Shown in pieces: positions 15,630 to 53,508 of a DNA stretch of 64,000 nucleotides. This stretch comes from Paradesertivirga mongoliensis (lineage in GTDB: Bacteria > Bacteroidota > Bacteroidia > Sphingobacteriales > Sphingobacteriaceae): the NCBI RefSeq assembly GCF_024436395.1, contig NZ_JAFMZO010000003.1, positions 62,001 to 126,000 on the forward strand, in the 5' to 3' direction. The notes below the pieces were generated by a model. That model had not been told where the DNA came from and did no database searches. It saw nothing but the letters and a program-made list of their open reading frames with translations. A program made the position numbers and the translations under genes. Every line of letters begins with the position of its first letter. Position 1 is the stretch's first letter.

Positions 15630-18290
15630 CTATCCTCCAAAGACACTCTTTGCCTTTAAAACAGTTTTTTCCAGGTCGATACCTTTACCCATCACGCCTT
15701 TAAACAAATCACCTATGTCGCGCAAGCGATCAACGGCATTAAAAATTGTAAAGTCGCGCATACTCAAACCAGGCTTAACCTCATCCCATAACAATGGCAT
15801 TGAAACGGTCGCTCCGGGCTTAGGGCGTAATGAATAAGGACCGGCAATGGTAGCCTGCGGACGATTTTGTAAAAAGTCGAGATACATTTTCCCTCCGCGC
15901 TTAGCAGTTAAGCGCTCTATACTGGTATATCCCGGAATCTGCTTATGAACAATGGTAACCAGCATCCTTGCGAACATCTGCGACTGGTCATAAGAATATT
16001 TTGCACCTAGCGGGATATAAATATGCAATCCGGTAGAACCGGAAGTTTTACAATACGACTCGACCCCTATTTCATCGAGAACACCTTTTACAACCTGTGC
16101 GGCTTCGATAACCTGTTCAAAAGTATTTTTATCGGGATCCAGATCAATAATGCACCAATCCGGGTTATCGGGATTATGTACCGTGCTGAGCCAGGGGTTC
16201 ATTTCGATGCAGCCCAGCGATGCCATGTATAATAAACTTGCTTCGTCGGTACAGAGCATAAATTCTTTATCGTGCCCTTCCCGGTTACTTTCATAAGGGT
16301 AGGTTGCTATCCAGTCGGGAACCTTGCCATGCACATTTTTCTGATAAAAGCTCTGACCATGTATCCCGTTAGGAAAACGGTTAAGCGACTGGGGCCTGTC
16401 TTTGAGATAAGGAACGATGAAAGGCGCGATTTGATAATAGTAATTCAGGAGATCACGTTTGGTAACCTTATCTTCAGGCCAGTATATTTTGCTGAGATTT
16501 GAAAATTTGAGATCGTGGCCGTTTATCTTCCGCACCTGTGTCTCATCTTTTGGGTTAAGGAGAGTTTTCCGGGTCTTTCCTTTCAAAGGAGTGATCACCT
16601 TTTGCTTCACAAAATCATGATCTTCTGCGATTACCTCGGCCGTATGAACCGGAGTCTCTCTAACCACCTCGTCTGCGTTCTTATCCTCGCGTAAACCCTT
16701 AAATGAAGGGTGCCTCATCACTCCGTCCTGGGTCATTTCGCGGTAGCTAACCTCCCCTACCAGTTTGGGCTTTACCCAGGTGGCTGTAGCTTTGGGCGGG
16801 TTAGGTCGAAATCTCGAAGGTTTGTTAAACTCGGGCACTACGCTAAAGGGGCATTCTTCCGTTATGAATGGCTTTAACCGTTCAATAATCTCCGTTTGCA
16901 ATTTATCACTAAAGCCGGTTCCCACTGGCCCGATATATTTCAAGGCATTATTTTCATAAACGCCCATCAGCAAAGCGCTGAACTTTTTCCGGCCATTTTC
17001 ATTATTGGTATAGCCGCATATAATTGCCTCCTGCCGTTTCTCTGTTTTTATTTTGAGCCATTCTTTTGACCTGATATCGGGCGCGTACAGGCTGGTCAGC
17101 TTTTTAGCGATAATACCTTCCAGTCCCATTTTATCTGCGGCTGCAAAGAACTCCGTACCACTGGCTTCAAACAGTTTACTCAGAAGTATTTTCTCATTTC
17201 CCTCCGGGATAATTTGGTTCAGGATTTCTCTTCGGCTCTGTAGCGGCAAGACGGTCAGATCCTTATTATCCAACCAGAGAACGTCAAATACATAAAACAC
17301 CAGTTCGCCGTCTGCCTCACTTCGCCAGTTTTGAAGCGCCGCAAAATCAGCCATTCCATTATTATTCAGCACTACAATTTCGCCGTCGAGTACTGCATTG
17401 ATCTTCCATTTGCTTAAAGCCTGATATATAGGATAAAATTTCTCATTAAATGATTTGTTATTGCGCGAGTTAAGCTGTACTTCGCCGTTATTGATGAACG
17501 CCAGCGCACGGTATCCGTCCCACTTTATCTCATAAACCCAATCCGGATCGTCGAAGGGCTTATCCACCAATGTGGCCAGCATAGGTTTGATCCCTTCGGG
17601 GAATTTAGCCTTTTTAGCCTCGTTTAAAAGGACTTTCAAATCTGTATCAGGATTACCGGCAAGGGCGCCTGCCTGAACATTTTCGGAACGATTGCTGTTC
17701 CAGACATTCTCACTTGTTTTTGCCACTTTATCTATGGTGAACCCAGAAAGCACTGATTTATTTTTTTTTGTAATATCATTTTTAGATGCGTACTCATCGT
17801 CAATTTTCATTAAAAGCCAACTATTCTCGCCTCTGCCAAACGCCTTCGCTAGGGCAAATTCACCTCTTAATTTTTCTCCATGCAGAATAAACTTGAACTT
17901 TCCGCTGTGCAAACCATGTAACAAATGTTTTTCCTGCTCTTTTTTACTCTTCCCTTCAAACTCTGATGGCTCAAAAGTGCCCTCGTCCCACACGATTACC
18001 GTACCCCCGCCATACTGGCCCTTGGGAATTATCCCTTCGAAAGTCCGGTAGTCAAATGGATGATCTTCCACCATCATGGCGAGGCGCTTTACATCAGGAT
18101 CCGTCGAAGGCCCTTTAGGCACCGCCCAGCTTTTAAGCATTCCTTCCATTTCGAGGCGAAAGTCGTAATGCACGTGTGAGGCATGATGCAACTGCACCAC
18201 AAAACGCAGCTTCGAGGCTTTGTTTTTTCCTCCGATGGGTTCAGGAGTGATGTCGAACCGGCGTTTCTGTTTGTATTTGTCTAGAGCCAT
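15630..18290 (-). CDS. ligD: Multidomain DNA ligase D (NHEJ)
   Basis: 886 residues with three domains in the order phosphoesterase, ligase, polymerase, as in Pseudomonas LigD. The N-terminal PE domain (about 15-170) has FVVQLHHASHVHYDFRLEMEG and WAVPKGPS. The ATP-dependent ligase (about 235-540) has motif I EIKWDGYRAL with adenylated K256. The C-terminal primase-like polymerase (about 595-880) has the acidic metal site in CIIDLDPDKNTF and HIYIPLGAKYSY. LigD processes and seals double-strand breaks together with Ku; no Ku gene is in this window. I start at ATG 18288-18290 (MALDKYKQKRRF). The in-frame extension to 18356 is not family-like. Confidence 0.95.
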   Translation of the reverse strand: MALDKYKQKRRFDITPEPIGGKNKASKLRFVVQLHHASHVHYDFRLEMEGMLKSWAVPKGPSTDPDVKRLAMMVEDHPFDYRTFEGIIPKGQYGGGTVIVWDEGTFEPSEFEGKSKKEQEKHLLHGLHSGKFKFILHGEKLRGEFALAKAFGRGENSWLLMKIDDEYASKNDITKKNKSVLSGFTIDKVAKTSENVWNSNRSENVQAGALAGNPDTDLKVLLNEAKKAKFPEGIKPMLATLVDKPFDDPDWVYEIKWDGYRALAFINNGEVQLNSRNNKSFNEKFYPIYQALSKWKINAVLDGEIVVLNNNGMADFAALQNWRSEADGELVFYVFDVLWLDNKDLTVLPLQSRREILNQIIPEGNEKILLSKLFEASGTEFFAAADKMGLEGIIAKKLTSLYAPDIRSKEWLKIKTEKRQEAIICGYTNNENGRKKFSALLMGVYENNALKYIGPVGTGFSDKLQTEIIERLKPFITEECPFSVVPEFNKPSRFRPNPPKATATWVKPKLVGEVSYREMTQDGVMRHPSFKGLREDKNADEVVRETPVHTAEVIAEDHDFVKQKVITPLKGKTRKTLLNPKDETQVRKINGHDLKFSNLSKIYWPEDKVTKRDLLNYYYQIAPFIVPYLKDRPQSLNRFPNGIHGQSFYQKNVHGKVPDWIATYPYESNREGHDKEFMLCTDEASLLYMASLGCIEMNPWLSTVHNPDNPDWCIIDLDPDKNTFEQVIEAAQVVKGVLDEIGVESYCKTSGSTGLHIYIPLGAKYSYDQSQMFARMLVTIVHKQIPGYTSIERLTAKRGGKMYLDFLQNRPQATIAGPYSLRPKPGATVSMPLLWDEVKPGLSMRDFTIFNAVDRLRDIGDLFKGVMGKGIDLEKTVLKAKSVFGG

Positions 18291-18437
18291 ATGATAAAAA
18301 AGAAGAGTCTCAAATCGGCAAGTGATTGCCCTGCCGGCAATGCTAATGGGAGTCAAAGCCCGTCCTGGCAGGGACGGAACACAATAGCCGGAAACTTTAC
18401 TTAGGTTAGGATCTTACCGATTTGAGATCCGCTGGCA

Positions 18438-44356: not shown

Positions 44357-45799
44357 ATGGAAAAAAGGAATTTGAAGATACAGGTAGGTTCGGAAATTGG
44401 GACGCTGCGCTCACTGGTTATTCATAGCCCGGATAGCGGCATTGGAAGAGTAGCCCCCACAAAAGCACAGGATTGGCTTTTTGAAGACATTGTTCACCTG
44501 GACACGGTAAGGCGAAAGGAATACGACTTATACGTAAAACTCCTTATGTACTTCCTTGATAGTGAGAACATAAAAGGCAAACTTAACGAAATTGACGCGC
44601 CGGAAAATAAACGACAGTATTTTAAGCCCGGTAAATCCGGATTCCATTCATCTTCAAAAGTTATTGAGTTTGAAGAGCTTCTAGCGCAGATACTTGAGCA
44701 AAAAAACATAAAAGAAAGCCTTACCGCCGCAGTTTGTGCCATCGAAGGCTGCAGCTATCATCTGCAGCAAGAATTGCTGAAGACATCACCAGTTGATCTG
44801 GCCAGAACATTTGTATCGGGTTCTCATCTGGATGGAGATATGATCTTCCCTCCTATCCCGAATTTAATCTTCACACGCGATATAGGAATTGCAATTAACA
44901 GCCATATTTTACTTAATAAACCGGCCAAAACAGCCAGATCGAGGGAAACCTTGCTCGCGCGGTATATTTTTTTCACACATCAAATATTTGAGAATTATAG
45001 AAACAACATCCTTGAAATACCCGATACGATAAAATACTTTATGCGTCCGGGCGAGGAACATGGCGAAAGAACAACTATCGAAGGCGGCGATGTAATGGTT
45101 GTAAGTCCAAAGCACGTACTGATTGGGGTAAGCGAAAGAACTTCGGCAAGCGGCGCCAGCGAATCGATTAAGCTTTTATTTACGAATGACGTGGTCGACA
45201 AAGTGACGGTAGTAAAGATTCCACCAAAGCGGGATTTCATGCACATTGATACGGTGTTTACCCAGGTGGATAAAAGCACATGGGTGGTGCTGGGTTCCAT
45301 ATCGTCTCAACAATTTAATAAAGGTTCGGAGGCTGTCGATTATTTATCTGAGAAGCGAAATAAAGAAAAACCTGAGATTGTTCAGTTTGAAAGAGGTAAG
45401 ATTACTGAACCGAAAACATTCAACTGTATCGAAGCGCTGCTTGAAGATATCAGTAAAAATGATTTAGGATGTACTCTTCCGGTTCGCTTTATCTATTCAG
45501 GTAACAATATGTTTCCATTTGATGTACGCGAACAGTGGACCGACTCATGTAATTTACTGGCATTAAAAGAAGGCGTGGTAATAGGTTACGACCGAAACGA
45601 CAAAACCGTTGAGGCTTTTAAAGACAATGGCTTTGATGTAATACTGGCAGCAGATTTGATAGAGAAACTGGAAAGCGGTGAGCTATCTGCGGAGGCAATG
45701 GAAAACACCTTGATATTGATGCCCTCGGCAGAACTGTCGCGAGCCCGAGGAGGTTTTCATTGCATGAGCATGCCGCTACTTCGGGAACCTTTAACATAA
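44357..45799 (+). CDS. Arginine deiminase family protein
   Basis: 480 residues of the guanidine-modifying fold. Motifs are NLIFTRDIGIAIN (Arg/Asp), TIEGGDVMVV, the His in DFMHIDTVFTQVD and the catalytic Cys in ARGGFHCMSMPLLREPL (C469). The combination matches arginine deiminase (arginine to citrulline plus ammonia). It is longer than the canonical enzyme (about 410), with an extra N-terminal segment (about 40-160) typical of Bacteroidota members. The ctlX gene starts 5 nt after its stop, so the two are surely co-transcribed. Confidence 0.9.
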   Translation: MEKRNLKIQVGSEIGTLRSLVIHSPDSGIGRVAPTKAQDWLFEDIVHLDTVRRKEYDLYVKLLMYFLDSENIKGKLNEIDAPENKRQYFKPGKSGFHSSSKVIEFEELLAQILEQKNIKESLTAAVCAIEGCSYHLQQELLKTSPVDLARTFVSGSHLDGDMIFPPIPNLIFTRDIGIAINSHILLNKPAKTARSRETLLARYIFFTHQIFENYRNNILEIPDTIKYFMRPGEEHGERTTIEGGDVMVVSPKHVLIGVSERTSASGASESIKLLFTNDVVDKVTVVKIPPKRDFMHIDTVFTQVDKSTWVVLGSISSQQFNKGSEAVDYLSEKRNKEKPEIVQFERGKITEPKTFNCIEALLEDISKNDLGCTLPVRFIYSGNNMFPFDVREQWTDSCNLLALKEGVVIGYDRNDKTVEAFKDNGFDVILAADLIEKLESGELSAEAMENTLILMPSAELSRARGGFHCMSMPLLREPLT

Positions 45800-45804
45800 C
45801 AATC

Positions 45805-46719
45805 ATGCATACTACCTTTACAGTGTTTATGGTAAGGCCCGTAAACTTTGCTTTTAATCAGCAAACTGCTAAAAGCAATGCTTTTCAAGATGTTAAAACC
45901 CAAGAATTAAACTTGCATGACCAGGCTCTCAAAGAATTTGATCAGTTTGTAAAAGTGCTTAGAGATAATGATGTAAATGTTATTGTTATAGACGACAAGC
46001 CAGATCCGCATACACCAGATTCAATCTTTCCTAACAATTGGATATCTACGCATAGTGATGGCAAAGTATTTATCTATCCAATGGAAGCCAGTAACCGGAG
46101 AAATGAAAGAAGGCCCGAAATACTGGAAGAGCTCAGGAACAGATTTAGAATTGAAAGCGAAATAGATTTAACCTTTCTCGAATCGGAAGGAAAGTACCTT
46201 GAAGGTACCGGAAGTATGGTTCTTGACCGTCAGAATAAATTAGCCTACGCCTGCATCTCGCCGAGAACAGATAAGAAAGCTTTAACTATTTTTTGCGACC
46301 TGAGCGGATATAAACCAGTGGTTTTCCACGCCTTTGACAAGAGTGGCCAGGCAATTTATCACACCAACGTAATGATGTGCATAGGCGATCTTTTTGCCGT
46401 TATCTGCCTCGAGTCAATAACTAACGCTGACGAACGCGAACGAATAAGCAACCTGCTTCTGGCCTCGGGTAAAGAGATTATAGATATTTCATACGAACAG
46501 ATGCGGAAGTTTGCCGGAAATATGCTTCACTTAACAAACAGCAAAGGGCAGAGTCTTCTTGTGATGTCTCGGCAGGCGCATCTTTCTCTCTCAGCAACTC
46601 AGCAGCATATTATTGATCGCTACTGCAAAATTGTTTCTTCTCCCCTGTATACTATCGAAAGCGGCGGCGGCGGAAGCGCCCGTTGTATGATTGCTGAAAT
46701 TTACCTGGAGAATCGATAG
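45805..46719 (+). CDS. ctlX: Citrulline-utilisation hydrolase CtlX-like amidinotransferase-fold protein
   Basis: 304 residues, also of the guanidine-modifying superfamily. Conserved points are TVFMVRPVNFAFN, TPDSIFPNNWISTH, LEGTGSMVLDRQNKLAYAC, AIYHTNVMMCIGD and the C-terminal nucleophile in GGGGSARCMIAEI (C294). This matches the CtlX family, which is linked to citrulline breakdown. The position after arginine deiminase fits a pathway arginine to citrulline to further products. The start at 45805 (MHTTFTVFMV) is preferred over 45760, which would overlap the deiminase. Confidence 0.88.
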   Translation: MHTTFTVFMVRPVNFAFNQQTAKSNAFQDVKTQELNLHDQALKEFDQFVKVLRDNDVNVIVIDDKPDPHTPDSIFPNNWISTHSDGKVFIYPMEASNRRNERRPEILEELRNRFRIESEIDLTFLESEGKYLEGTGSMVLDRQNKLAYACISPRTDKKALTIFCDLSGYKPVVFHAFDKSGQAIYHTNVMMCIGDLFAVICLESITNADERERISNLLLASGKEIIDISYEQMRKFAGNMLHLTNSKGQSLLVMSRQAHLSLSATQQHIIDRYCKIVSSPLYTIESGGGGSARCMIAEIYLENR

Positions 46720-46863
46720 TTTATATATCCTGGAACCATCGTCTTTATAAAGCTAATCTTAGCCCTATTACAACAAAAGCACTATTCTGTAACAAAAAAT
46801 TCAAATAAAAAGAATAAGCTTATATTTCATTAAAAAAATCTCATTTTTGCCAAAATTTAATTA

Positions 46864-48249
46864 ATGCAGAGTTACGAAGAATTTATAGACCTCAGCGTTG
46901 GCTTTCCACAAGAAGGCTTTGAAGTTATTGATGATGAGTTATATTTCCACGACCTTAATCTGATGGAAATGATAGAAACCTACGGCACTCCATTACGGTT
47001 TACGTATGTTCCTCTTATCAGTAAAAAAATCCAGCAGGCTAAGCTCCTGTTTAAAAAAGCGATCGTGAACAACAACTATCGCGGCAGTTATAAATATTGT
47101 TACTGTACCAAAAGCTCGCATTTTAAACACGTAGTTGAAGAGGCGCTTAAAAACAATATCCACTTAGAAACATCTTCGGCCTTCGACATGCCAATGATCG
47201 ATGCACTTGAGAAGAAAGGAGTTTTAAGCAAAGACATTACCGTGATTTGTAATGGCTTTAAAACCTATCAATATAAACAGTATATCATCGATATGCTGCA
47301 TGACGGATTCTCGAACATCATCCCCGTTTTAGACAATAAAGAAGAATTCAATCTTTACGATGATGAGTTAGATATTCCCTGCAATCTCGGTATCCGGATA
47401 GCTGCTGAAGAGCAGCCTGATTCGCAGTTTTATACTTCCCGTCTGGGAATCAGGATGGAAGACATTCTTGATTTTTACAATAACAAGATTGCTACCAACG
47501 CCAACTTTAAGGTAGTATTACTGCATTTCTTTATCAATTCCGGGATCTCCGATACTCCTTATTACTGGAATGAGCTTGAAAAGTACGTTACGCTTTACTG
47601 CAAATTCAAGAAGATCAATCCTGATCTGACTACCCTTGATATTGGCGGCGGAATGCCATTTAAAGATTCGCTGGTATTTGATTTCGATTACGAATACATG
47701 GTAAATGAGATCGTAAAACGGATAAAAGAGATCTGCGCCGAGCACGATGTGGTTGAACCAGATATTATTACCGAGTTTGGTAAATATACTTGCGCTGAAG
47801 CTTCCGGAATTCTCTACAAAGTACTGGGAAGAAAGCAGCAAAACGACCGTGAGAAATGGCTGATGCTGGACGGTTCTTTCATTACCAATTTACCGGATGT
47901 CTGGGCTTTAAACCAGAAATACATTTTATTACCCATTAACAATTGGGATTCTGAATACGAACGTGTTAACCTTGGCGGGATAACCTGCGATGGGCAGGAT
48001 TATTACAGTCAGGAAGCACACATGAACAACGTGTTTATGCCTAAAACCCGTAAAGTTCAGTACGTAGGATTTTTCCATACAGGAGCTTACCAGGAAGTTT
48101 TAAGCGGCTATGGCGGGATACATCACTGCCTGCTGCCCTCGCCCAAACATGTAATTATTCGCCGTAACCGGGATGAGACGTTCAACTTTGAAGTGTTTGG
48201 AGAAGAACAAAATAGCAAACAGGTTTTAAAGATTTTAGGGTATACCTAG
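46864..48249 (+). CDS. speA: Arginine decarboxylase (short Bacteroidota form)
   Basis: 461 residues of the fold-III (alanine-racemase-like) PLP decarboxylases. The PLP lysine is in YKYCYCTKSSHFKHVVEEAL. Other blocks are HLETSSAFDMPMIDAL, VICNGFKT, SRLGIRMED, the glycine-rich DIGGGMPF, ITEFGKYTCAEASG and the C-terminal VGFFHTGAYQEVLSGYGG. It forms agmatine from arginine for polyamine synthesis. It is shorter than E. coli SpeA (about 660), the usual situation in Bacteroidota. It lies 144 nt downstream of ctlX on the same strand and may use its own promoter. Confidence 0.9.
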   Translation: MQSYEEFIDLSVGFPQEGFEVIDDELYFHDLNLMEMIETYGTPLRFTYVPLISKKIQQAKLLFKKAIVNNNYRGSYKYCYCTKSSHFKHVVEEALKNNIHLETSSAFDMPMIDALEKKGVLSKDITVICNGFKTYQYKQYIIDMLHDGFSNIIPVLDNKEEFNLYDDELDIPCNLGIRIAAEEQPDSQFYTSRLGIRMEDILDFYNNKIATNANFKVVLLHFFINSGISDTPYYWNELEKYVTLYCKFKKINPDLTTLDIGGGMPFKDSLVFDFDYEYMVNEIVKRIKEICAEHDVVEPDIITEFGKYTCAEASGILYKVLGRKQQNDREKWLMLDGSFITNLPDVWALNQKYILLPINNWDSEYERVNLGGITCDGQDYYSQEAHMNNVFMPKTRKVQYVGFFHTGAYQEVLSGYGGIHHCLLPSPKHVIIRRNRDETFNFEVFGEEQNSKQVLKILGYT

Positions 48250-48315: not shown

Positions 48316-48342
48316 AACCGCCTCGAATTTCTCCGGGCGGTT
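48316..48342 (-). terminator. Terminator of the chaperone/usher-like operon
   Basis: A 7-bp GC-rich stem (48316-48322 with 48336-48342). Read on the minus strand it is followed by a long T-rich run (48302-48317), the right arrangement to end the leftward operon whose last gene stops at 48362. Confidence 0.75.
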
Positions 48343-48361: not shown

Positions 48362-49180
48362 CTAATTTATATTCAACTCAAGCTCGGCCGCTTGCACCTC
48401 ATCTTTGCTTCCAAAATCTACAACACCGGTCAATTGATATTTCCCTTTTTCCAAGCTGGCTGGCAAGGTGAAAGTCATCTCCCTGGATCCGCCAGGTAAT
48501 ACGGTAAAGGCAGAAGGCTTTAACCGCTCTTTCTTCCCCGTTCCCAGATTCACGTACTCAATATATGCAGCGCAATCTAATATTGCATCGCCGGTGTTTT
48601 TAGTAAGGAGTGAAATCGACCTGTCGCCGGCTTTGTCGCCTTGAACTTGTTTTAAACTTACTATTTCGGCTTGTTTAAAGGTAACGTTTGGGGGTGTTTG
48701 AAAAATATGAACTACAAACTGAAAAGTTTCAAGAATACCCATACCAACGTCATTACTCCCTAAATTGCTGGCGTTTGCACGGTTTCTATCGAGTTTCAAC
48801 ATCAATGTCCCCCATTTTACTTTATTCGATTCCGGAAGGTTCGGCATCTCTAAGGTTACTTGAACATCCTGACTTTTCCCCGGCTCCAATTCGAAAAAAG
48901 AAGGGCTGGCACTAATATATTTCACCAATGAATTCGGACTTTCCCCGGCTTTCATCAATACTGATTTACCTGCGCTTCCCGGAGCAGAAAAATCGCCGAA
49001 CGTGATTACAAAAGACTCTTTTGATTTCGAATTATTAGTAACTTTTAAATTTTGAGACTTGAGGCTCCCCGGATTAACTTTATAGTAAAATCTGCTGGGT
49101 GCTACAGAAATATTCTGAGCTTTTAAACCAAAACTTAATAATAGAATTACTGCGAAAGAGCTTAAAAATTTAGTTGTCAT
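48362..49180 (-). CDS. PapD-like periplasmic chaperone (last gene of the usher-like operon)
   Basis: 272 residues with a signal peptide (MTTKFLSSFAVILLLSFGLKAQ). Two Ig-like beta-sandwich domains are visible. The first (about 22-155) has the fimbrial-chaperone style pattern NISVAPSRFYYKVNPG, LKVTNNSKSKESFVIT, SPSFFELEPGKSQDVQVTL and a WGTLMLKL strand. The second (about 165-272) has VTFKQAEIVSLKQVQG, ISLLTKNTGDAILDCAAYIE and REMTFTLPASLEKGKYQLTG. It lies 16 nt after the 997-residue outer-membrane protein gene. A role in folding or delivering the two secreted subunits is inferred from domain type and position. The start at 49180 is chosen over 49210 for its signal peptide. Confidence 0.75.
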   Translation of the reverse strand: MTTKFLSSFAVILLLSFGLKAQNISVAPSRFYYKVNPGSLKSQNLKVTNNSKSKESFVITFGDFSAPGSAGKSVLMKAGESPNSLVKYISASPSFFELEPGKSQDVQVTLEMPNLPESNKVKWGTLMLKLDRNRANASNLGSNDVGMGILETFQFVVHIFQTPPNVTFKQAEIVSLKQVQGDKAGDRSISLLTKNTGDAILDCAAYIEYVNLGTGKKERLKPSAFTVLPGGSREMTFTLPASLEKGKYQLTGVVDFGSKDEVQAAELELNIN

Positions 49181-49196
49181 ATAGATTGTTAGTGTA

Positions 49197-52190
49197 TTAA
49201 TTATTTTCAATTACGTTACCGTTCGAGTCGAACCTTTTAATGTTAATTTTTCTCTTCCTCTCTTTGATGAAGAAAGTTAAGTTGTAGATATCCGAAACGG
49301 TTATCATTTCAATAGTTGTAAGCTTTTGTTCAAGTTCAAAATTATCAGGCAAAGCATTTTCGTTAATACTTACCTGGTATACTCCGGCAGGCAAGCGTAT
49401 ACTAAAGCGTCCGTCTTTATCTGTCAGCGCTGTAAAAGTTTTACCTAATGAATCTAAAGCTGATACTCTGATCTTACTCAAATCAACTTTCTTATCAAAA
49501 TCAGCAGCAGTAGGATCTCTCTCTGCAACCAAAACACCAGTTAACTGTACGCCCTGGTTTAACGGCATCATCAGATCTTGGTTACCATCAATTTTAACTA
49601 CTTGTTCGCTCCCGGCAAAAAAACCGTCGCTCTCTGATAGCGGAACTATTTTAACGATGTAACTTCCTTTAGGCAAATTATTATAAGTTACTTTCCCCTG
49701 TTCGTTTGTAATAAAATGTTCTCCGTTGTCTCTTAAGCCCGAATAATTTGTGAGCGCCGTATCCTTAACAAGCGGCTTAATATTTACCAGAACATTTTTT
49801 AATCCCTGCTCATCTCTGTCCTGCTTGCCATTACCATTCAGATCTTTGAAAACAGCCACAGACAGCTTATGATACTTCCTGGCCGAAACCGGTACTCCGA
49901 TCCTCTTTTTTATACCTACACCAAAAAACAGGTTCGACATTACAATTGGCCTGTTTATATCATTAAAGTTGTTGGTGAAATTATTTTGATTAAGAAAAGG
50001 GTTGTTCCGTTGATTATTGTTCATATACTGTCCATAGAACTTAACCTCCAGCCCACGTTTAGGTACATAATATAACTCCGGACGCAAGCTAATCCTGTTT
50101 CTCCGATACAAAGTTTCGTAGCTATAAATCATGCTGGGCTCCAGGGTAAGGGCTCGCTTTATTAACCAGAACCTCATATTGGTATTAACAAAAATTGATT
50201 GGTTATTAATCTTTGAAGTGGCAAACAGCAATTGCTCGTAGGTTTGATAGGGCCCGTAGTAATATCTTAAGTTAGTTGTTAAGCCTTTATATCTGAAACT
50301 CGACCGAACCTGTGTGGTAAAATAAGGATCGATATCATAATCCAGCAACTTGTTATATGCACCGGCTACGGAAACAAAGAACCGCATATCGTTAGTGGCT
50401 TTTGGTCTGAAATCGAAACCCAGGCCATTTGATTCGGATCTGAGATTAAAAATTTCGGTATACATGTGCTGCGCCCGTAGCGCCACATTGTATTCTGCTT
50501 TATTGATATTGTATTTCAACTCATAACGCTCGGTTGTGCTTTCCCGCGAATTCAGCAATAGTCCTGTCGAGGAAAAATATTGCGGCTTTTGATCGAAGAT
50601 AAATGCACCGGCACTTAATGCACTCGACCTTCCCAGCCTGTATAACACATCAGCTCCAACACTTTTTATTCCGCGGTAGCCAATATTATACTCGCTCCCA
50701 AATGAGTTTGATAGGTTTAAGCTCAATTTATTGAACGTGCCGTTGTAATTTACTGCGTATGCAAAACCGTTTCTTTTCAATGGAGTCGTTCCGTCGTTAT
50801 AAACTTCGTTAGACAGAGCACTATTAATAATAACGCTTTGGTTGCGCGAAACCATGAATCGAACCTTATTGCTATATTGAGTTCCTTTTGTGTTGAGCAG
50901 CGAATTCTCATTAAACTGAATAAAGTTTTCGACATGGGTGGCACCTTTTCTAAATTCGTAACTCAGTCCGTAGTCCGACTTATTATACTGATTAAAAAAA
51001 CCCGGTCCTCTTAAATAAAAAGCACCCACGTTGTGTTTTTCTGTTAACTGGTATGTTCCTTTAATACCGCGGCCGGTAGGAGTGAAACCTAAGTTGGAAT
51101 TACCGTTTACATCCCCTATTTCCACGTTGGTACGCGGTGTAAAATATCCCACATAGTGCGAATTACCCAGATAAGGTGTATATGTATAAAAGTTATTGAT
51201 AAAGAAAGTCTGATACCTGTAGGTAAGACTACGATTCTTTTCAAGATTTGCATTACCATACAAACCCAAATTCAGCATTGTAGAGTTATCCAGGAAATTA
51301 TCGACATTGGCTTCGATCGTCAGGGGTAGTGAAAGAGAATGATACTCATGCAGCCTGGCTTCAGTCCCAGCTTTAATAAAATCAACAGTTCCCCGCCAGG
51401 TTCTGGCTAGCGATTTGTCGCCAGGTTGGTTCTGAACAGATATACGCAATGGGTAATAATCATTTTTAGCTAACTGCACGGCCTCAAAATCTTCTCTAAA
51501 AGCTTGCTGAACAGGTTTTTGCTTCTCAACCTTGAAATAAATTAATGTGTCGGTATTAACCGGCAACTTAACATTATAGAAAAAGATCTGAGTGTGATTG
51601 TTAATATTATCAAGCACCTTTAACCTTTTATCGGCGTTAAAATTTACTTTTATTTCTTCGGGAGCGTTGCCCATGTTCTGAAGCCGGATCGAAAAATGAG
51701 CAGTGTCACTCTCATCCAGGAAAAATATCTTGTTATAGGTTAAAGAAGCAGCCCACTTAGACTCCTTTTTTATATTCATGTACCAGATTGCTGATGCGAA
51801 CTGCATCTGATTCTCGGCAACTAAGGATGCATTGATAATGTGACTAATATTTCCGGTATTAATTTTTTTCGGAGCGAGATTAACCGGAATAAAAAGAGAA
51901 TCGTTAGGTGAAATTACATATTTGGTGGATCGTCTGCTCACATTCGACCATCCGTCGGGCGAGGTTAAGTGCAAATCGAAAGCTATCGCGGTAGCTGAAT
52001 TATTTCTTATTCTGAGCACATTAGATGATATGTCATGACTGCTGTGCTCGGTTCTTTTGTTGACGAATTCTACCTCAACTCCTCTTTTTCTACTAGCTTG
52101 TTGCGCATTTGAGAGAGACAAAGCAAACCCGATCAGGCTTACCTGTAAGAAAACTTGTCTAAGAATTTTATTGAGGATAGAGTTTCTCAT
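49197..52190 (-). CDS. Large outer-membrane protein, candidate usher-like secretion/assembly pore
   Basis: 997 residues. A signal peptide (about 1-30, LSLSNAQQ) precedes two or so Ig-like domains (about 35-250, NVLRIRNNSATAIAFDLHL, SPDGWSNVSRR). A long beta-barrel-like region follows (about 255-765) with alternating Tyr/Phe/Arg strands and an early TNVEIGDVNGNSNLGF / GRGIKGTYQL segment (about 350-380). The C-terminus has an SdrD-B-like unit with a Ca-loop-like DLNGNGKQDRDEQGL (about 782) and a second carboxypeptidase-regulatory-like unit (DKDGRFSIRLPAGVYQVSI). N-domains, barrel and two C-terminal beta units mirror an usher layout, but I see no definite usher signature. The start is 1 nt after the second subunit gene. 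Confidence 0.7.
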   Translation of the reverse strand: MRNSILNKILRQVFLQVSLIGFALSLSNAQQASRKRGVEVEFVNKRTEHSSHDISSNVLRIRNNSATAIAFDLHLTSPDGWSNVSRRSTKYVISPNDSLFIPVNLAPKKINTGNISHIINASLVAENQMQFASAIWYMNIKKESKWAASLTYNKIFFLDESDTAHFSIRLQNMGNAPEEIKVNFNADKRLKVLDNINNHTQIFFYNVKLPVNTDTLIYFKVEKQKPVQQAFREDFEAVQLAKNDYYPLRISVQNQPGDKSLARTWRGTVDFIKAGTEARLHEYHSLSLPLTIEANVDNFLDNSTMLNLGLYGNANLEKNRSLTYRYQTFFINNFYTYTPYLGNSHYVGYFTPRTNVEIGDVNGNSNLGFTPTGRGIKGTYQLTEKHNVGAFYLRGPGFFNQYNKSDYGLSYEFRKGATHVENFIQFNENSLLNTKGTQYSNKVRFMVSRNQSVIINSALSNEVYNDGTTPLKRNGFAYAVNYNGTFNKLSLNLSNSFGSEYNIGYRGIKSVGADVLYRLGRSSALSAGAFIFDQKPQYFSSTGLLLNSRESTTERYELKYNINKAEYNVALRAQHMYTEIFNLRSESNGLGFDFRPKATNDMRFFVSVAGAYNKLLDYDIDPYFTTQVRSSFRYKGLTTNLRYYYGPYQTYEQLLFATSKINNQSIFVNTNMRFWLIKRALTLEPSMIYSYETLYRRNRISLRPELYYVPKRGLEVKFYGQYMNNNQRNNPFLNQNNFTNNFNDINRPIVMSNLFFGVGIKKRIGVPVSARKYHKLSVAVFKDLNGNGKQDRDEQGLKNVLVNIKPLVKDTALTNYSGLRDNGEHFITNEQGKVTYNNLPKGSYIVKIVPLSESDGFFAGSEQVVKIDGNQDLMMPLNQGVQLTGVLVAERDPTAADFDKKVDLSKIRVSALDSLGKTFTALTDKDGRFSIRLPAGVYQVSINENALPDNFELEQKLTTIEMITVSDIYNLTFFIKERKRKINIKRFDSNGNVIENN

Positions 52191-52191
52191 G

Positions 52192-52758
52192 TTACAAATC
52201 TTGTATCAATACAAAATCTATTCTCAATGAATATGAGCCAGCTTTATAGGTTAAACCAGGAGTAGCTTTTAAGTCTACTTTAAATGAATAGCATTGCGGT
52301 TGTGTAGTGTATGATCCGGCTACGTTTGTACCAGAACTGGCACAGTTAACCGAAGCGTCGTTAGCTGCACTTCCAATCATATAAACCGGCGTTGCAATAT
52401 CTGTAAGGTTAAAAAATGAGGTTCCTGTTTGAGATGTGCCGGAAGCATTGTAAACTCTCGCCTGAAGAATACTAACCGGAATTGAAGAATTACCTGAGGT
52501 ACCATAACTGGTATTGACATCAAATAAACCACTTGCAGTAGTGGTAGTTCCCATGTAGAGATCCCATTCGGTGCCAACTGCATCTACTTTAAGAGTTACA
52601 AAGGATGGTATAACTATCCCTTTGTTGTACTTATCAATAGAGTCGAATACAAAATTGAGATTAGGACTTGTCTTTAATGCGAAGCTTACCGATTGTCCGG
52701 ATGCAGCCAGGTTTAGGAGCACAAGTGACAATGTCAGGATGAGAGCCGTTTTTTTCAC
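52192..52758 (-). CDS. Secreted pilin-like subunit B
   Basis: 188 residues from a GTG start (GTGAAAAAAACG). Signal peptide KKTALILTLSLVLLNLAASG, mature about 166 residues. It is rich in Ser/Thr/Gly/Asn with beta-strand pattern. Blocks are NLNFVFDSIDKYNKGIV, TLKVDAVGTEWDLYMG and the C-terminal AGSYSLRIDFVLIQDL. These blocks are shared with the upstream subunit A gene. Two Cys are present near the middle (NCAS, QPQC). The gene is separated from the outer-membrane protein gene by 1 nt. A structural role in a surface fibre is inferred. Confidence 0.7.
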   Translation of the reverse strand: MKKTALILTLSLVLLNLAASGQSVSFALKTSPNLNFVFDSIDKYNKGIVIPSFVTLKVDAVGTEWDLYMGTTTTASGLFDVNTSYGTSGNSSIPVSILQARVYNASGTSQTGTSFFNLTDIATPVYMIGSAANDASVNCASSGTNVAGSYTTQPQCYSFKVDLKATPGLTYKAGSYSLRIDFVLIQDL

Positions 52759-52805
52759 AGTTGTTCTCTGTTGTTGAGCGTTATAGAGAGTTATGAATGG
52801 AATGT

Positions 52806-52839
52806 ATGAGCAAATGATTAACAGGAATCATTTGCTCAT
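52806..52839 (-). promoter_or_regulatory. Intercistronic hairpin between the two subunit genes
   Basis: A perfect 13-bp inverted repeat (52806-52818 with 52827-52839) with an 8-nt loop, 10 nt after the stop of subunit A. On the operon strand it has no T run, so it looks more like an mRNA-processing or 3'-protection element than a full terminator. Confidence 0.65.
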
Positions 52840-52848
52840 TTTTGATAT

Positions 52849-53508
52849 CTACAAATCCTCTACCAGAGCGTAGACAACTTCCAGATAATAATAACCAGCT
52901 TGTGCAAAACCCGGTACACCTAACGCAACAGTTGAATTAGGGAAAGTAGCAGGAATACCTGGCTTTAACCTGTAGTGAATTCTGAACTGGTTAGTAGTAG
53001 GATTAGCAAGAGCTGATCCGGGTGCATACGACTGTGCCGCTGCTGTACCGATACGACCGGCAAGGAACTGAGTTGCTGCCGTTGGTACACCTGCTGCTAC
53101 ACCAGAGTTAGTCAATCCCTTTAAGCTAACAAATGAGTTAAAGTTATTGCCACCTGCGCTGGTGTTTGCTCTCACAGACTGAACCTCTAAAATCTCAGCA
53201 GGTAAAGTAGCTGTACCAGTTGTAGAATAAGCGTCTACCTGAACCCAGTTATCAGTGCTTGCATAAGCGAACAGATCCCATGCTACGGTAGCATCAACAT
53301 CAAGTCTGGTAGTGTTATACTTCACAATACCTTGTTGATAATCCGGAATCGATTTGAAAGAGAAATTAACGGTAGGATCATTAGTCATTGTAAGATTTAG
53401 TATTCCTTGCAGATCCATTGTTACATAAGAATACTCCTGATCACTTAGCTGGGCATACGACCCGGTAGCGATTCCAAAAAAAGCTAATAAGGTAAAAATT
53501 TTCTTCAT
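52849..53508 (-). CDS. Secreted pilin-like subunit A (first gene of the operon)
   Basis: 219 residues with a signal peptide (MKKIFTLLAFFGIATGSYAQ). The mature domain has TVNFSFKSIPDYQQGIV, TRLDVDATVAWDLFAYAS and the C-terminal AGYYYLEVVYALVEDL. Aligned by eye with subunit B, these blocks share the pattern NFxFxSIxxYxxGIV, WDL(F/Y), and AGxYxLxxxxxL(V/I)(E/Q)DL, so the two are paralogues. It is Ala/Thr-rich and has no Cys in the mature part. I start at ATG 53506-53508 because it gives the signal peptide. It is 90 nt upstream of subunit B. Confidence 0.7.
   Translation of the reverse strand: MKKIFTLLAFFGIATGSYAQLSDQEYSYVTMDLQGILNLTMTNDPTVNFSFKSIPDYQQGIVKYNTTRLDVDATVAWDLFAYASTDNWVQVDAYSTTGTATLPAEILEVQSVRANTSAGGNNFNSFVSLKGLTNSGVAAGVPTAATQFLAGRIGTAAAQSYAPGSALANPTTNQFRIHYRLKPGIPATFPNSTVALGVPGFAQAGYYYLEVVYALVEDL

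Follow-up and report, generated by a model that had tools for sequence, protein, structure and literature searches.

The question raised by this locus is whether a leftward operon of four genes in Paradesertivirga mongoliensis encodes machinery that assembles surface fibers and, if so, how that machinery is related to the chaperone-usher pathway. A first-pass annotation had proposed an independent or very diverged surface-fiber system. That proposal is supported by the homology of subunit A to the solved TLP protomers, by the profile relation of the chaperone, and by the co-occurrence of the genes in other genomes. Judged from these sequence comparisons, the four-gene cluster very probably builds hair-like surface fibers. 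We consider it likely that it is a chaperone-usher-like donor-strand system, with A as the shaft subunit and B as the first (tip) subunit.

The operon and its relatives

The operon occupies the minus strand of the window, by which we mean the entire 64,000-nt stretch of DNA that was analyzed. Its genes encode, in order, subunit A (52849..53508; ATG start, 219 aa), subunit B (52192..52758; GTG start, 188 aa), a 997-aa predicted outer-membrane secretion or assembly protein that is usher-like in role only (49197..52190), and a two-Ig protein that is the putative periplasmic chaperone (48362..49180). The last is 272 aa long when counted from its ATG, and its open reading frame extends upstream to 282 aa if a TTG start is taken. 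Between successive genes there are 90, 1, and 16 nt. A Rho-independent terminator lies 3′ of the operon on the same strand (48316..48342), where an AACCGCC/GGCGGTT hairpin is followed by TTTTTG; it was found by direct reading of the sequence, its loop of more than 8 nt being beyond the limit of the hairpin scanner. All four proteins begin with ordinary Sec-type signal peptides, which end in AQ or GQ and have no lipobox Cys. The first-pass annotation had described the leftward order, the protein sizes, the GTG start of B, the gaps, the terminator, and the four signal peptides, and each was found as described; it had not noted an inverted repeat in the A–B gap or that subunit A is homologous to a fiber protein of solved structure.

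The gene order and both subunit genes are kept in a congener (L028/L047) at 85–96% identity and in Pedobacter sp. SYSU D00535 (L029/L048) at 55–78% identity; we therefore concluded that the operon is not a chance arrangement of open reading frames. Judged by its 997-aa protein, the closest named relatives are Sphingobacteriaceae bacterium ES-bin-166 (85% identity) and the same Pedobacter strain (54–55%). The operon is present in one copy in its own genome. In the Pedobacter strain it lies in another chromosomal neighborhood, adjoining genes that, judged from their sequence, resemble those for arabinose utilization. In the window it is convergent with a pair of genes (45760–48249), the first dimethylarginine dimethylhydrolase-like and the second of the Orn/Arg/DAP decarboxylase type; this pair also adjoins the operon in the congener L028. 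At 15630–18356 the window also encodes a LigD of bacterial NHEJ that is complete, its phosphoesterase, ligase, and primase-polymerase domains all being present.

Among 100 genomes of relatives, 22 carry the 997-aa protein. In the loci that were read, a chaperone gene is near the 997-aa gene in all except L036, and the complete loci contain at least one small subunit. Phylum-wide, among 395 genomes, a chaperone is located within 5 kb by coordinates in all 17 loci with a strong match to the ~1000-aa protein. The first-pass annotation had named a lack of conserved co-occurrence as an argument against its own proposal; the four genes co-occur across Bacteroidia, and that objection is excluded. A profile search of genome contigs with the close alignment gave two loci only, and a search of viral contigs for the operon gave none.

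The loci fall into two layouts. The first is that of the window (A, B, 997-aa protein, chaperone), with the chaperone gene placed first in many genomes. The second consists of one or more small subunits, the chaperone, a 330- to 510-aa protein with a subunit-like C-terminal strand, and a ~945-aa usher-like protein; a regulator that appears AraC-like from its sequence often lies upstream. A two-domain tip adhesin would be expected to look like this 330- to 510-aa protein. Homology links the subunits of one layout to those of the other (hhalign, 99.6%, E = 6e-25). In another class of the phylum, loci L097, L099, L100, and L115 combine multiple small subunits with a chaperone and a large outer-membrane protein; there are weak direct matches of L097 to PF00577, of L099 to PapD_N, and of the four as a group to the FimA profile. 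These Bacteroidota loci could be genuine chaperone-usher systems.

The gap between the A and B genes contains a 14-bp perfect inverted repeat capable of forming a stem-loop (52806..52839, minus strand; hairpin scan). Its minimum free energy is −20.6 kcal/mol, with z = −6.8 relative to mononucleotide shuffles, and the window copy has no U tract. A hairpin 3′ of the A gene with z ≤ −2.8 (mononucleotide shuffles) was found in 9 of 11 window-layout loci and also occurs in most of the further loci, those found from TLP-2, often with a U tract. In the majority of the homologous operons, these hairpins have the same position and unrelated sequences. In pap-type operons a hairpin follows the major pilin gene; the resemblance suggests that the A–B hairpin favors expression of subunit A in excess.

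Subunits A and B and the TLP fibers

With its single sequence as the query, subunit A matched the protomer of TLP-2 in the PDB (9ikk_A; phmmer, E = 4.1e-10). The subunit profile A5, built from 22 subunits, matched the same chain with E = 3.7e-32 and that of TLP-1 (9ikj_A) with E = 6.7e-30, and subunits of the second layout matched the TLP protomers as well (E = 2e-7). The homology between these protomers and subunit A extends across nearly the full length, N-terminal arm included. In each of the entries 9IKJ and 9IKK, a single chain is present in 16 copies, as would fit a helical fiber. TLP is presumably Tsinghua Lotus Pond, the fibers being those of the CryoSeek work (PNAS 2024). We conclude that the main building block of the system is a homologue of solved fiber protomers, and the claim that it forms fibers is, as a conclusion from homology, well based.

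The TLP protomer is 28% identical to subunit A of the window, and other Bacteroidia subunits reach 50%. Homologues of TLP-2 were found in 30 of 395 Bacteroidia genomes; when a genome coding for TLP-2 itself was sought, the best homologue was 50% identical. Twenty of the loci with TLP homologues were examined, and 15 of these contain a chaperone, a long-arm subunit, a short-arm subunit, and the ~1000-aa protein. The other five are on truncated contigs (L136 and L151) or are solitary subunit genes (L139, L146, and L149). For the three solitary TLP-like A genes, in genomes G675, G536, and G089, respectively, a full operon is present elsewhere in the same genome; they could possibly encode alternative shaft subunits or variants.

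Subunit A has a signal peptide at residues 1–20, an N-terminal arm of 28 residues (LSDQEYSYVTMDLQGILNLTMTNDPTVN) whose alternating part in the window is YVTMDLQGILNLTM, a WxL-like motif (W77-D-L79), and the C-terminal strand AGYYYLEVVYALVEDL. Subunit B belongs to the same family; alone it had no match in the PDB, and it reaches the TLP proteins through the family profile A5. With arm length counted from the signal-cleavage Gln to the conserved core, B has only 13 residues ahead of the core and thus has no donor arm. In the window-layout loci with both kinds of subunit, the long kind has 28–30 residues before the core, with an alternating arm, and the short kind has 13–16, except in four loci where this segment is instead Cys/Pro-rich, 26–36 residues long, and free of the alternating pattern. 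This difference fits a shaft subunit (A) and an armless first subunit (B).

Neither A nor B had a Pfam match, so the WxL domain and the type V fimbrillin families were also unmatched, and the subunit profiles gave no significant match to those of FimA or the Gram-positive WxL proteins, including when the comparison was repeated with enlarged alignments. The AlphaFold2 model of subunit A, made from a shallow alignment, had a pLDDT of 33; matches obtained with this poor model in Foldseek were meaningless and were set aside.

Type V pili (FimA/Mfa1) are made from lipoprotein precursors by gingipain cleavage, with no known chaperone or usher (PMC5789003). They and the window system would have in common surface fibers in the same phylum, and strand-exchange assembly has been proposed for them. 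The window system differs from them in its plain signal peptides, its dedicated chaperone, and the lack of a type V family match; the earlier view that the subunits have no type V features was thus upheld.

The two-Ig chaperone and the WxLIP proteins

The family profile of the 272-aa protein was compared by hhalign with those of two groups of proteins. It aligned with the FimC-type chaperones of E. coli K-12 over 210 columns spanning both domains (95.6%, E = 1.2e-8), and with the Gram-positive WxLIP proteins (DUF916-DUF3324) over 235 columns (98.3%, E = 1.2e-14); reversed decoys gave 0.5% or less. Both matches were stable when 14 sequences were added, the FimC-type value then being 93.8%. The FimC and WxLIP profiles, compared directly, did not match each other. 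Both do match the Bacteroidota chaperones significantly, which suggests that WxLIP of Gram-positive bacteria and the PapD chaperones have a common origin in a single family of strand donors. In the PDB, the best profile match was EfmWxLIP1 (both domains, E = 0.0025), and FaeE reached only E = 0.8. As a single sequence, the window chaperone had no PapD match in Pfam and matched PF06030 with E = 0.009, which is under the Pfam cut-off. We conclude that the 272-aa protein is a relative of the FimC/PapD chaperones and, more strongly, of WxLIP, an assignment that these profiles make well based.

The residues of the subunit-binding cleft differ between the two layouts. In the window chaperone the PapD Arg is retained (R30) and the K112 column has His; most other window-layout chaperones have neither cleft residue (Arg8 and Lys112 columns). 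In the second layout, K112 is present in nine of nine chaperones and the R8 position is R or K in all nine. The G1 region of the second layout reads GIKLYQR, resembling RIKLYYR of FimC, and that of the window reads VHIFQTPP.

AlphaFold models of WxLIP show a strand that completes the WxL fold (PMC10599100), an operation of the same kind as strand donation by a chaperone. The closeness of the two proteins raises the possibility that the locus is a diderm counterpart of the Gram-positive WxL/WxLIP clusters, in which the two-Ig protein anchors the subunits at the surface or peptidoglycan and the large protein is a display scaffold, not an assembly platform. Besides the WxLIP matches, the gene content agrees, one WxLIP and two WxL genes being that of the Gram-positive clusters, for which insertion of a WxLIP strand into WxL is predicted (PMC10599100). 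The Bacteroidota relative L109 has a chaperone that exceeds the Pfam cut-offs for both WxLIP domains (PF06030 and PF11797), subunits A and B have W-x-L and aromatic-x-L motifs, and some relatives of the 997-aa protein have SPOR-like tails, described below. However, the WxLIP proteins have a C-terminal transmembrane helix, whereas the C-terminus of the window chaperone (ending AAELELNIN) has no hydrophobic stretch of helix length and no transmembrane anchor. WxL proteins have a dual W-x-L; in the window subunits W-x-L occurs once and the second motif is Y/F-x-L. The window adds the outer-membrane-type 997-aa protein, the subunits have no significant match to the WxL profile, and A is homologous to fiber protomers; its long arm and the hairpin after its gene suit a major subunit that polymerizes. 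We regard the anchoring role as unlikely. As a separate observation, L109, L110, and L111 (L109 being the one tested with Pfam) have, beside the WxLIP-type chaperone, three small subunits and an usher-like protein of ~915 aa.

The 997-aa protein and the proposed assembly pathway

The first-pass annotation had found in the operon the parts of a chaperone-usher system. Profile comparison confirmed the relation of the chaperone to PapD/FimC; it did not do so for the usher. The 997-aa protein appears to have two Ig-like domains at ~32–280, with weak family matches, followed by a candidate barrel at ~285–775. Its C-terminus contains two transthyretin-like domains, SdrD_B (779–849) and CarboxypepD_reg (905–943), and these were its only Pfam matches; Usher (PF00577) was not among them. 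When PF00577 was scanned across the phylum, 0 of 198 Bacteroidota exceeded the cut-off. The N-terminal region did not match the K-12 usher profile, and the barrel was negative against the FimD profile with an enlarged alignment. Searches of the PDB found no usher homology with the single sequence (phmmer); with the A1 family profile, the only matches were to SdrD/NOMO-type and YfhM proteins, at the C-terminus. A match of the 997-aa profile to FimD, 26% at first, dropped to 3% once the alignment was enlarged and was discarded. The N-terminal region of the family bore a faint resemblance to the chaperone (60%, E = 8e-5). Because no usher homology could be demonstrated, we call the 997-aa protein usher-like by role, not by descent; from its position, size, and co-occurrence, it would serve as the outer-membrane platform.

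The AlphaFold2 model of the 997-aa protein had a pLDDT of 32, also with a shallow alignment, and counts of amphipathic strands did not tell its barrel and Ig regions apart. The large proteins of L030, L031, L032, L034, L036, L037, and L099 have SPOR-like C-terminal tails, which in L031, L037, and L099 were identified from Pfam matches below threshold and in the remaining loci from alignment similarity; these tails suggest that the outer-membrane protein is linked to peptidoglycan and that its C-terminus is periplasmic.

Outer-membrane proteins of Bacteroidota commonly contain CarboxypepD_reg-like domains. The presence of one in the 997-aa protein could mean that this is an ordinary porin or TonB-dependent outer-membrane protein whose secreted neighbors are unrelated to it. 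However, the CarboxypepD-like domains here are C-terminal, no TonB plug or receptor family was matched, and the module is kept across many families. This explanation is very improbable.

A second explanation, a special case of the chaperone-usher-like system proposed here and overlapping with it in confidence, is a bona fide but diverged chaperone-usher pilus of the archaic type, in which the 997-aa protein would be a genuine homologue of ushers, too distant for sequence comparison to reveal. Archaic pili (Csu, CupE) have the widest phyletic range of the three chaperone-usher classes, and non-classical chaperones anchor the subunit otherwise than by the Arg8/Lys112 pair, with an Arg89 anchor (PMC4654587). 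The window chaperone, with His in the K112 column, could resemble them in this respect. The alignment of the family chaperone profile with FimC favors this explanation, as do loci of sister classes, with weak matches to PF00577 (E = 3e-4) and PapD_N (E = 9e-4) and a hint of CooC_C. The usher profile of such loci (U57) matches the K-12 ushers (94%, E = 1e-7), and their pilin profile (P57) matches FimA (91%). However, U57-type ushers and the window family are bridged only via their C-terminal transthyretin-like domains, the barrel-to-barrel comparison being negative, and the N-terminal region of the 997-aa protein resembles two Ig domains with no match to the K-12 usher profile. We consider a diverged pilus of this type a real prospect, at somewhat less than even chances.

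The classical pili of E. coli K-12 (FimA/FimC/FimD) share with the window system a two-Ig chaperone with a homologous profile, a large outer-membrane protein, an armed shaft subunit, and an armless subunit. They differ in having a PF00577 usher, subunits that match FimA, and a chaperone K112 that is absent from the window. The system in the window would work in the chaperone-usher manner, and we place it beside that pathway by likeness, not as a demonstrated member.

In the chaperone-usher-like assembly that we propose, the four proteins would be exported by Sec, as their signal peptides suggest. In the periplasm, the two-Ig chaperone would bind the incomplete Ig-like subunits and lend them a strand, in keeping with its homology to FimC-type chaperones and WxLIP. 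The N-terminal Ig domains of the 997-aa protein would be where the chaperone-subunit complexes dock, and this protein would pass the subunits outward. Subunit B, having no long arm, would begin the fiber and stand at its tip. The 28-residue arm of A would fill the groove of the preceding subunit to produce the shaft polymer, a donor use suggested by the arm difference, and the hairpin 3′ of the A gene may tilt expression toward A. By homology, the shaft would be expected to resemble the TLP-1 and TLP-2 fibers of 9IKJ and 9IKK.

Chaperone-usher systems have been reported from Proteobacteria, Cyanobacteria, and Deinococcus-Thermus, and Bacteroidota are not among these (PMC4654587). In the openly accessible literature, we found no paper on such systems in Bacteroidota and none linking WxL proteins to the chaperone-usher pathway; priority is not claimed. 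A broader interpretation, which we offer tentatively, is that the operon represents an undescribed fiber-secretion pathway of Bacteroidota in which the assembler is no usher homologue, the chaperone family unites PapD and WxLIP as a donor-strand superfamily, and the machinery is that behind TLP-1 and TLP-2.

If the fiber system is as proposed, Bacteroidota would gain a chaperone-assisted fiber system besides type V pili. The TLP fibers, which come from environmental samples and were reported without conclusive identity, would also gain a gene cluster as their likely assembly machine, and that assignment would be open to work in culturable Pedobacter relatives.
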